Origin: Styela clava | Taxonomy: Eukaryota > Chordata > Ascidiacea > Stolidobranchia > Styelidae | Length of the DNA stretch: 64,000 nt | Assembly (NCBI RefSeq): GCF_964204865.1 | Contig: NC_135263.1 | Location: 1,552,501-1,616,500, forward strand | Reading direction: 5' to 3' | Part shown: positions 34,601 through 42,575 of the stretch, piece by piece | Position numbering within the stretch: position 1 is the stretch's first letter | How the letters are laid out: each line of letters begins with the position of its first letter | The notes under the pieces: model-generated | Told to the model about the DNA's origin: nothing | Seen by the model: only the letters and a program-made list of their open reading frames with translations | Database searches by the model: none | Program-made: the position numbers and the translations under genes

Positions 34601-37106
34601 GATACCCCCGTCATAAGTGATTTGATGATAAACAGTCTCTTCACAAGCTGATGCCTTTGTTACAGTGAATACACAATAGTTTCATAGCAAAGCTTGCCTA
34701 AAAACTGATTCTACTTTCTAAGATTGCTCCTTTTTTTTTAATTTGAAAAAAAACATTTTTGTATCTAAATGGCAAGATTTTTAAAATTCCACGTTGTTAC
34801 GGTCTAACTTCACAATTAGAACTTTCAAAACCCATCTTTGAGAATTCTTAGCTTATGCCCCTGCCTGACCTGTGTGGCATTTGCTTTTTATAAGAACGGT
34901 AACAACTCATGTTTCAAAATAAATTGGAATAAATGACACAATTTTTTTTCAGTTATACGCAGAGAAGGTTGCTAACCGTGGTCTCTGTGCTACAGCACAG
35001 TGCGAATCTCTCAGGTACAAGTTACTCGGAGGATTGGCCGTAAGACGGTAAGTTGAATTTAACCAGTACCATTAAAATATCTTTTTATTGGTCATTTTGT
35101 TAAGTTAACAGCAGAACTCTGGTCATCCATGGCGGTTTGAGGTGTCTATATTTGTATGTATTCTTTCCAACTTTCAATTACTCTCCGAAACTTCTGTCCT
35201 ATTTAAAACGAGGCTTTGATGTATAGAAGCCATCTTTAATTACGTTGAACTGTTTAGTAATAACATTTAGAGATCTAAAATTCCCAATCAGTACTTAAAA
35301 AGAGGATTTAGAATTTCACTGCAATTCAGATTCCGCAAAGTTAAAAAAATGATTCAAAATCCTATATCTTGCTATCTAACTGACAATGCATTACATAGTG
35401 ATCATTGGACATGATAAATCCCTCCGAAAACCTGATGCAATATCACCCGGACTCCACGGACTTGACTAGGTTTTTGTTTTGCCGTCCGCTCAGCAACCTC
35501 ACAGCAATGATGACTAAACTTAGGACACCGAAATACTTCTTGAATGATTAGAATTAAGTTACTCTAGCTGAGCTGTGAGGTTGGATTGGGCCATGTTCCT
35601 ACTCTAATATCTGCTAAAAACTATTTTCGTTAAAAAAAATTCCAAAAAACAAAAAAATTCATAATAATAAATACATTTTATTTTAAATATTCATTTTTTT
35701 GTTGTCATCGGAGGTTTTGGCAGTATATCTTGCATTTGTGAGTTGTTTCCAAATAAAAGTCACAAGTTAATCATGCTAAAACAGCTTCGTTGCCACAAAG
35801 CAGGGATAGAGCTTGCATATGGAGTATTTGTGTCCCGAAGTAAGGACAGACTCCAAAAGAGGGGGCTGTATTCATTTTTCTGTAATATACCCGCAGTGCT
35901 TGCTATGGACACCTAGGAAACGTCATGGAATTGGGGGACCATGCCGATATTTTTTCCACTGAGGTTCTGAAGTAGCTACAGTCCACTGTGGGCCAAATTG
36001 TTCTGTGTCCTGAAGTAGGGACAGTCGTGAAAGGAGGACCACACTAATATTTTTCCCATACTTTTTACAGCGCTTGCTATGGAGTCCTACGTTTCATCAT
36101 GGAATCGGGGGCCAAAGGATGCGAAGTTGTCGTTTCTGGAAAGCTACGAGGGCAGAGAGCTAAAGCTATGAAGTTTGTCGACGGTCTTATGATCCACAGC
36201 GGAAACCCAGTCAGAGAATACGTGGATACTGCTGTAAGGCACGTCCTCCTTAGACAAGGTTCGTTGAGAGTTTGCATTATTTTTTTACTTCTGCTCATTG
36301 AATGAATATTTGAAATACGAAATCTGAAAGTCCAGTTTTAGCGGTTGCACAGGAATTTCTGGTTCTGAACCTCTTCCTTCATCCGGCCACTCCCGGTCCT
36401 CTCAAAACTGCAGATGATGTTTCACGATGGTCTTCATAGAACATTTTTGTTCATTGATGATGCGTAACTCTCTCACTGATGCAGTTGTGACATTTAAAAA
36501 ATGGTTTACTGCTTTACAGACGCAGACTATTTATTTTGCACCACTTGAGCCATATAAAGATCCTCCCCTTCTTAACCTTGAGTCCTCTCTATATTAAAAT
36601 TTCTCCCTCCCTTTTGTAAGTTGAAATTGTTATGCAAGTGCACCGCTTCCAGAATCCCATTTATTTTCTCGAAATCGTGAGATTCGTGTTTTACACTAGT
36701 TCTATTGCTTTTCAAAATCGGAAGTGTAAGAACTAAAATAGATATACTTTGTGGGAGATTGGTGCACTCCACGCGACTCCTAAAATTTGTTGCGCGGCCC
36801 CTGTATAGACACGACCCCAGTTCGGGAAGCTCGTGTTGAATCATTTTTTTCTTGTTTTCAGGTGTCCTTGGAATCAAGGTCAAGATTATGCTCCCATGGG
36901 ACCCCAACGGTAAAATTGGACCCAAGAAGCCCCTTCCCGATAACGTGAGCATTGTGGAGCCTAAAGACGAGGATGAAGTCACTGGACCCAAGTCTGAATC
37001 GAAGACCCCCAAACCAGACCCTGTCCCGAGCCAGGTGCCCCAGGCTATGCCACCCCAAGCGATGCCCCCTCAAGCCCAGGTTCAGCAGATGGGACCCCCA
37101 ATGTAA
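31620..37106 (+). CDS. RPS3: 40S ribosomal protein S3 (uS3), complete, six exons
   Basis: Small-subunit protein at the mRNA entry channel. Exons 31620-31649, 32246-32376, 33570-33663, 34953-35047, 36071-36258 and 36862-37106 total 783 nt, 260 residues plus TAA. The start ([10 protein letters not shown]) matches the family N-terminus exactly in position. The KH-2 domain has its [10 protein letters not shown] loop in exon 3. Exon 4 gives [22 protein letters not shown], exon 5 [20 protein letters not shown] and exon 6 [26 protein letters not shown]. The variable tail is longer than human (243 residues) and Pro/Met/Gln-rich with [10 protein letters not shown]. Introns 1, 2, 3, 4 and 5 each carry a box C/D snoRNA candidate. 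A polyadenylation signal AATAAA is at 37123. Exons 4-6 and the flank are duplicated downstream. Confidence 0.98.
31861..31942 (+). ncRNA. Box C/D snoRNA candidate, family A, RPS3 intron 1
   Basis: C box ATGATGA (31870-31876), an internal C'-like ATGATTA, D box CTGA (31931-31934). The closing stem AGTGTGGC / GCCACACT is perfect over 8 bp and differs in sequence from the stems of the other copies while staying paired. About 82 nt, in the sense strand of a ribosomal protein gene intron, the usual home of metazoan C/D snoRNAs. The guide before the D box ends AAGTTACTCTAG; I could not assign an rRNA target. Confidence 0.85.
33150..33248 (+). ncRNA. Box C/D snoRNA candidate, family A, RPS3 intron 2
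   Basis: C box ATGATGA (33167-33173), D box CTGA (33228-33231), and the longest closing stem of the family (33150-33165 with 33232-33248, about 16 bp with one bulge). The core is nearly identical to the intron 1 and intron 4 copies. The guide differs by a few bases (CATGTTACTCTAC instead of AAGTTACTCTAG), so its target or efficiency may have drifted. Confidence 0.83.
34003..34113. repeat. Foldback family variant in RPS3 intron 3
   Basis: ACCTCCAGAAGTATGTGCAC then AAGATGGCGCACAACCTG, with the mirrored GTGCACATACTTCTGGAG-type end; the subfamily is shared with 62860-62970. Confidence 0.65.
34333..34554. repeat. hAT-like MITE in RPS3 intron 3
   Basis: CAGGGGTCGGGCAAGGTTTT ... TTTAAGAACCCCTG; about 220 bp, no clear target duplication. 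Confidence 0.45.
34582..34658 (+). ncRNA. Box C/D snoRNA candidate, family B, RPS3 intron 3
   Basis: C box ATGATGA (34590-34596), C' TGATGAT (34623-34629), D box CTGA (34648-34651). Closing stem AAAGGCA / TGCCTTT, 7 bp. The D-box guide contains GTCTCTTCACAA, which is complementary to TTGTGAAGAGAC. I recall a near-identical segment of large-subunit rRNA (GTGAAGAGACAT after the GACTCTAGT stretch), so 28S methylation is a plausible role. The left edge of the tandem duplication begins inside its 3' stem, so this snoRNA is not duplicated. Confidence 0.78.
35494..35583 (+). ncRNA. Box C/D snoRNA candidate, family A, RPS3 intron 4
   Basis: C box ATGATGA (35507-35513), D box CTGA (35568-35571). The closing stem CAACCTCACAGC / GCTGTGAGGTTG is perfect over 12 bp, and its sequence differs from the intron 1 and 2 stems. 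The core is identical to the intron 1 copy, including the guide. Confidence 0.86.
36406..36486 (+). ncRNA. Box C/D snoRNA candidate, family C, RPS3 intron 5
   Basis: C box ATGATGT (36414-36420, last base off consensus), C'-like TGATGATG before the 3' half, D box CTGA (36476-36479). Closing stem AACTGCA / TGCAGTT, 7 bp. The guide before the D box reads GCGTAACTCTCTCA; no target assigned. An identical copy sits in the duplicated segment. Confidence 0.75.
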
Positions 37107-37122
37107 TTTATCGTGGTCGCTA

Positions 37123-42284: not shown

Positions 42285-42575
42285 ACTTATCGATTTTAGT
42301 CTATAAGTATGTTGATAGGTAATTGCCTGTCTGTTAGATGCACGCGATATCTCATGAAAGCGAGATTGAATCTGCTCCAGATTTTGAATGTGCGTTCATC
42401 ATATGTCGGACCAGAAGCCTATTGATTTTGGATGAATTATGTTGTATAATTAGCGAGTTATTATTAATTAGTAATTAGACACAAGGTGTCACTATGGAGT
42501 AAGAGCGCTGTTTTGGGGGATTCCCTAACTTTCGATCTATAAGTCTTCGTCTCTGACCGATATTCTCGTTACACT
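42285..42575. repeat. Repeat family I, longer copy at the end of unit 2
   Basis: Identical start to 38417, then CATATGTCGGACCAGAAGCC and CTCTGACCGATATTCTCG as in the copies at 16567 and 25572. Confidence 0.75.

Follow-up and report, generated by a model that had tools for sequence, protein, structure and literature searches.

Background

Tandem duplication of the 3'-terminal part of a gene is a known kind of rearrangement, and ribosomal-protein genes are known to host intronic C/D-box small nucleolar RNAs (snoRNAs). We describe here a locus of the ascidian Styela clava at which both meet: the 3' half of RPS3, the gene for ribosomal protein S3, is present twice in direct order. The window analysed is a stretch of 64,000 nucleotides of the forward strand (assembly GCF_964204865.1, contig NC_135263.1 of 20 Mb, positions 1,552,501 to 1,616,500), and coordinates below are those of the window unless the contig is named. 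Two further systems are close to this one. Ivanov and Pervouchine 2022 (PMC9013439) treat exons that are duplicated in tandem and chosen in a mutually exclusive way, and Ko et al. 2022 (PMC9516828) report that false duplications in assemblies are most often separated by gaps.

Like other 3'-terminal partial duplications, the RPS3 locus has a promoterless 3' half beside its parent and a joint with microhomology; unlike them, the copy lies directly after the parent in the same orientation, looks homogenised by conversion and could still serve the parent transcript. Like known host genes, RPS3 carries snoRNA-like sequences with C and D boxes in its introns, here resembling SNORD58 and SNORD35, whereas these candidates score below the Rfam gathering values and the SNORD58-like one occurs in three introns plus the duplicate. 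The system of PMC9013439 shares with RPS3 the head-to-tail exons within one gene and the need for single inclusion of each to keep the frame; it differs in that the RPS3 unit takes in three consecutive exons, a stop codon and a polyadenylation (poly(A)) signal, encodes an identical protein and offers what is only a potential choice between the sets. Adjoining near-identical exon blocks also recall the false heterotype duplications of PMC9516828, which differ from RPS3 in that its units adjoin without a gap, at a derived joint that lies in a dispersed repeat. Among the papers listed in searches of the literature, none was seen to describe RPS3 as partly duplicated in tandem, which does not prove that such a description is lacking.

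The explanation that we favour, at a probability of roughly 55%, is a genuine partial tandem duplication of RPS3 whose second exon cassette (exons 4'-6', against exons 4-6 of the first) is redundant, has little or no use and has been kept alike by gene conversion.

Results

The 3' half of RPS3 is present twice in the assembly

RPS3 lies on the + strand, and its six coding exons splice, by translation and splice sites, into a complete S3 protein of 260 amino acids with the Pfam domains KH_2 and Ribosomal_S3_C. Against the PDB, this product matched 59 distinct sequences at E<=1e-60, with names that were mostly S3 or uS3. A preliminary description of the locus had placed exons 4-6, the stop codon and AATAAA in two direct copies and exons 1-3 in one; self-comparison, splice sites and frame agree with it, and its coordinates, with the end of exon 3 at 33663, were correct. 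To that description are added here a mosaic of divergence with a putative conversion tract, the derived nature of the joint, and the snoRNA-like sequences. The parts of the gene are as follows.

31620..33663, + strand: RPS3 exons 1-3 and introns 1-2, from translation and splice sites; single copy in the window
31620-31649, 32246-32376 and 33570-33663, + strand: exons 1, 2 and 3, from splice sites and frame
34653..38520, + strand: unit 1 of the tandem duplication, with the 3' part of intron 3, exons 4-6 and downstream sequence; edges defined to within 2 bases (common TG)
34953..37106, + strand: exons 4-6 of unit 1 (exon 4 34953-35047, exon 5 36071-36258, exon 6 36862-37106 with the stop codon)
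37123..37128, + strand: AATAAA of unit 1
38521..42386, + strand: unit 2 of the tandem duplication; compared with unit 1 it has 27 extra bases between about 38530 and 38557
38844..41002, + strand: exons 4'-6' of unit 2 (exon 4' 38844-38938, exon 5' 39967-40154, exon 6' 40758-41002 with the stop codon)
41019..41024, + strand: AATAAA of unit 2

The duplicated unit, which measures 3.87 kb, is arranged head to tail and contains RPS3 exons 4-6, the stop codon and AATAAA. Self-comparison resolved it into two direct repeat blocks, one pairing 34663-37382 with 38557-41289 at 97.6% identity and the other pairing 37417-38520 with 41291-42386 at 95.5%; at the left edge, a few extra bases (from 34652-34654) also match at the joint. 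A search of the 376.6-Mb assembly (379 contigs) found two S3 C-terminal domains, both at the RPS3 locus (both of the two candidates scored), and unit 1 used as a DNA query gave two full-length matches (best 40 of 3379 candidates); the repeat is therefore not a chance one. The 5' region with exons 1-3 matched in full only itself among the best 40 of 4683 candidates, a list filled by a high-copy element of intron 3, so that a stray copy of these exons elsewhere in the genome is possible.

The joint between the units is derived

Two features define the right-hand borders of the units.

38519..38521, + strand: joint between the units, a derived junction with a 2-bp TG microhomology (38519-38520)
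42279..42500, + strand: dispersed repeat running through the right end of unit 2; its counterpart in unit 1 is truncated by the joint

Relatives of the dispersed repeat at 16561 and 25565 of the window continue past the end of unit 2 (42386) in agreement with its right flank, and unit 1 departs from the repeat at 38520/38521. The genome search with unit 1 (best 40 of 3379 candidates, as above) returned 43 rows, comprising 38 of the dispersed repeat, three of another repeat at 37364-37551 and the two units themselves. Among the 38, 36 end at query positions 3867-3869 (38519-38521) and two at 3874-3875, that is, 5-6 bases further. Because the dispersed repeat is intact beyond unit 2 and cut in unit 1, it is the junction of the two units that is derived, and the outer flanks keep the ancestral state; head-to-tail copies with a single derived joint and ancestral outer flanks are the pattern of a tandem partial gene duplication. 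The 27-base difference near the start of unit 2 is an insertion there or a deletion in unit 1, and no stretch of 12-20 bases from the joint region matches elsewhere in the window as its source.

Divergence is a mosaic

The preliminary description gave the introns as diverged by a few percent, which holds for the part of intron 3 (2.8%, 8/287 aligned sites) and for intron 4 before its snoRNA-like sequence (4.65%, 21/452) but fails for the remainder of intron 4 (0.40%, 2/494) and for intron 5 (0/603). No mismatch occurs in exon 4 (0/95), in the snoRNA-like sequence of intron 4 (0/77) or in exon 5 (0/188), and exon 6 has 2/245. The untranslated region until just past AATAAA differs at 3/43 sites, and the segments that follow differ at 12/231, 33/834 and 4/260. 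One region stands out.

35581..36916, + strand: near-identical tract of unit 1, differing from unit 2 at one of 1336 aligned sites, probably through recent gene conversion, and including all of intron 5

Non-coding differences number 1/1093 within the tract and 82/2188 (3.7%) outside it (Fisher p 1e-13, with the bounds of the tract picked after viewing the data). Smaller identical runs that also span non-coding sequence are found around exon 4 (227 bp) and at the right end (232 bp). Coding constraint is not the cause of the tract, since intron 5 is wholly identical. A contiguous tract of excess identity that takes in non-coding sequence is what conversion between tandem copies leaves, and such conversion would be the simplest cause of the tract if the duplication is real, with haplotype sharing in its place if it is not.

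The two exon sets are interchangeable at the protein level

The same 260-amino-acid protein is obtained from 4-5-6, from 4'-5'-6' and from the ordered mixtures tested, 4-5'-6' and 4-5-6', which bears out the earlier proposal that the two sets are interchangeable at the protein level. Exons 4 and 5 are identical between the units, and the two silent changes of that proposal are both in exon 6, as T/C differences at 36917 and 36962 at which unit 2 has C. Inclusion of both exon 4s, of both exon 5s or of 4-5-4'-5' shifts the frame to an early stop. Only one copy of each exon is thus permitted, because the exon lengths break the frame on double inclusion, which does not prove that both sets are used. 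Homologous exons of the same phase, with intact splice sites and a frame that double inclusion breaks, are the sequence signature of mutually exclusive tandem exons.

From the donor of exon 3, exon 4 is 1289 bases away and exon 4' 5180 bases, with the complete first poly(A) signal in between. Unit 2 has no start codon and lacks the first half of RPS3, and we infer that it could yield S3 only within the parent transcript. Use of the second cassette is expected to be minor, because the stop codon and the AATAAA of unit 1 are both intact and precede it.

snoRNA-like sequences in the introns

At gathering thresholds, Rfam gave 0 matches in the whole window, and the following candidates emerged only at an E-value setting.

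31863..31939, + strand: SNORD58-like C/D snoRNA candidate, intron 1
33160..33236, + strand: SNORD58-like C/D snoRNA candidate, intron 2
34582..34658, + strand: C/D snoRNA candidate, intron 3; best Rfam match snoR16 at 30.6 bits (cut-off 45); not duplicated
35500..35576, + strand: SNORD58-like C/D snoRNA candidate, intron 4 of unit 1
36409..36488, + strand: SNORD35-like C/D snoRNA candidate, intron 5 of unit 1
39396..39472, + strand: SNORD58-like C/D snoRNA candidate, intron 4' of unit 2; all 77 bases identical to unit 1
40305..40384, + strand: SNORD35-like C/D snoRNA candidate, intron 5' of unit 2; same sequence as in unit 1

A 77-base C/D-box sequence in introns 1, 2, 4 and 4' has SNORD58 (RF00151) as its nearest Rfam family; its four copies score 25.0-27.0 bits against a gathering value of 42 and are hence called SNORD58-like only. 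Its block CUUAGGACACC matches the Rfam consensus, and a closing stem forms in the fold of each of the four copies (z against shuffles -1.67, -3.99, -2.35 and -1.95). The copy of intron 2 is 86% identical to that of intron 1 and 95% to that of intron 4. Since the sequence is found in three separate introns, copying inside RPS3 predates the cassette duplication. The two SNORD35-like copies (RF00211) score 31.9 bits against 36 and are likewise named by likeness only; their label rests on the sequence match because the fold is no better than that of shuffles (z -0.75, 43/200). The candidate of intron 3 is present once because the left breakpoint of the duplication (34653/34654) falls inside its 3' terminal stem.

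The duplication adds one SNORD58-like and one SNORD35-like copy. Intronic C/D snoRNAs generally depend on transcription of their host, so the additional copies count only if unit 2 is transcribed.

Other features of the window

Intron 3 of RPS3 contains an element of ~600 bp that resembles a miniature inverted-repeat transposable element (33714-34330), with high copy number and inverted ends, outside the duplicated unit; the long matches listed for it are 88-95% identical and spread over many contigs. Matches to mir-559 and MIR844 at 34006-34111 were rejected, being below their cut-offs and inside this element. At 35894-35937, and again in unit 2, intron 4 contains a decayed duplicate of the start of exon 5, acceptor AG included (local match of 44 bases scoring 43, where 200 shuffles reached at most 28). 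It also has another internal repeat of 34 bases. Both point to smaller local duplications earlier at the locus.

Upstream of RPS3, in divergent orientation, the minus strand has an open frame for PIG-F of glycosylphosphatidylinositol synthesis (28763-29503, E 1.5e-33). Also on the minus strand is a 501-amino-acid open frame for WASH complex subunit 1 (18244-19749), intronless there, with a WASH_WAHD domain at E 2.5e-90. Around the window, a satellite array with a period of ~47 bases extends over ~6 kb (contig about 1632489-1638554) and a second, with a period of ~106 bases, over ~1.5 kb (contig about 1626666-1628131); the two arrays account for 91 + 8 rows of the survey of direct pairs discussed below. 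An older direct pair, with segments about 7 kb apart, lies at about 1710409-1720158 of the contig (793 bp at 87% and 931 bp at 81%).

Discussion

In the sequence, the point 34653/34654 of intron 3 is joined, with the 2-bp microhomology, to a point in a dispersed repeat ~1.4 kb downstream of the gene. Under the explanation that we favour, this joint marks a real doubling of 3.87 kb, in which exons 4-6 are accompanied by the poly(A) signal and by two snoRNA-like sequences from the introns. Transcription would start solely at exon 1, exon 3 would normally be joined to the nearer exon 4, and nearly all messenger RNAs (mRNAs) would end at the intact first poly(A) site, which would leave the second cassette redundant. 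It may have stayed intact through conversion that erased differences between the neighbours, latest over the stretch between intron 4 and the beginning of exon 6, with selection purging harmful variants that were converted into the first cassette.

Conversion is supported by the longest identical run, of 1003 bp (35914-36916): when the 85 mismatches were shuffled 10000 times across the 3809 ungapped sites, no run was longer than 582 bp. Several points weigh against this explanation. The shuffle test ignores selection on exons and snoRNAs. The mosaic of identity would also be expected of a pair of haplotypes with stretches shared through recent descent, and the lack of N does not guarantee that a joint is right. 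Outside the tract, 2 of 285 coding sites differ, both silently, against 82/2188 non-coding sites (p 0.0046), and amino-acid changes number 0 against about 4.0 expected had unit 2 drifted freely (P 0.018), a rough expectation that assigns unit 2 half of the non-coding divergence and assumes that a change alters the amino acid at three quarters of the sites. This depletion hints at constraint on, or use of, the second cassette, or may reflect further, patchy conversion; caution is called for because the 227-bp and 232-bp identical runs include non-coding sequence.

Use of both cassettes is the alternative that survives best, and we regard it as possible yet doubtful. Some transcripts would read past the first poly(A) site and splice from exon 3, 4 or 5 into the second cassette. 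The protein would be unchanged, the untranslated region at the second 3' end would be almost so, and introns 4' and 5' would supply additional SNORD58-like and SNORD35-like snoRNAs. The constant product of the tested mixtures and the frame shift on double use of exon 4 or 5, as in mutually exclusive sets, fit this, as does the depletion of coding differences; in unit 2, moreover, the AATAAA is intact, and so are the splice sites and the snoRNA-like sequences. The acceptor of exon 4 falls within the 227-bp identical run, and the 77-base SNORD58-like sequence is unchanged next to a part of intron 4 that differs at 21 of 452 sites. The identical blocks, however, also take in intron of no known function, for which conversion accounts; the SNORD58-like RNA of unit 2 has one mismatch in its outer stem; and exon 4' lies about four times as far from the exon 3 donor as exon 4, past a complete poly(A) signal. 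A bolder version, with two equal 3'-terminal cassettes that both feed mRNA under recurrent conversion, the second being kept for the extra copy of two ribosomal RNA-guide snoRNAs per transcript, would be rather improbable.

An assembly artefact, in which two alleles of one locus were placed in a row by the assembler, we consider unlikely, and a real partial tandem duplication is likelier than such a haplotype merge. Divergence of 3-5% with identical stretches would be plausible for the haplotypes of a very heterozygous animal, and genes with most of their exons falsely doubled side by side are reported by Ko et al. 2022 (PMC9516828). Yet the window has no N and there is no gap between the units; the joint cuts a dispersed repeat at microhomology, and unit 1 lacks the sequence that would be due next on its haplotype. 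Nor do the surroundings suggest a merged region: in 264 kb (the window and 200 kb around it on the same chromosome, taken as three blocks and counting pairs within a block), direct pairs that reached 500 bp and lay within 15 kb occurred, apart from RPS3, only in the two satellite arrays and as the one older pair. Outside RPS3 and the arrays, no direct pair in these 264 kb exceeds 87%, so that satellites apart there is no other near-identical tandem pair on the scale of kilobases.

That the second cassette is a dead, functionless relic yet to decay, a reading that differs from the favoured one only in denying conversion and selection a part, is very improbable. The cassette does lack a start codon and the first half of the gene, and a poly(A) signal precedes it, but 3.7% non-coding divergence together with 0 amino-acid changes, 0 broken splice sites and the 1003-bp run is at odds with simple drift after a single event.

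Conclusions

The RPS3 case is most likely an ordinary, if instructive, tandem duplication of part of a gene that bears signs of conversion, and in annotation unit 2 should not be labelled a second RPS3 gene. If real, the locus would show in nature how equal terminal exon cassettes compete, since the same acceptors, exons and poly(A) signals stand at two distances from one promoter and silent marks distinguish the products. It would also suggest that conversion can preserve a promoterless half-gene.
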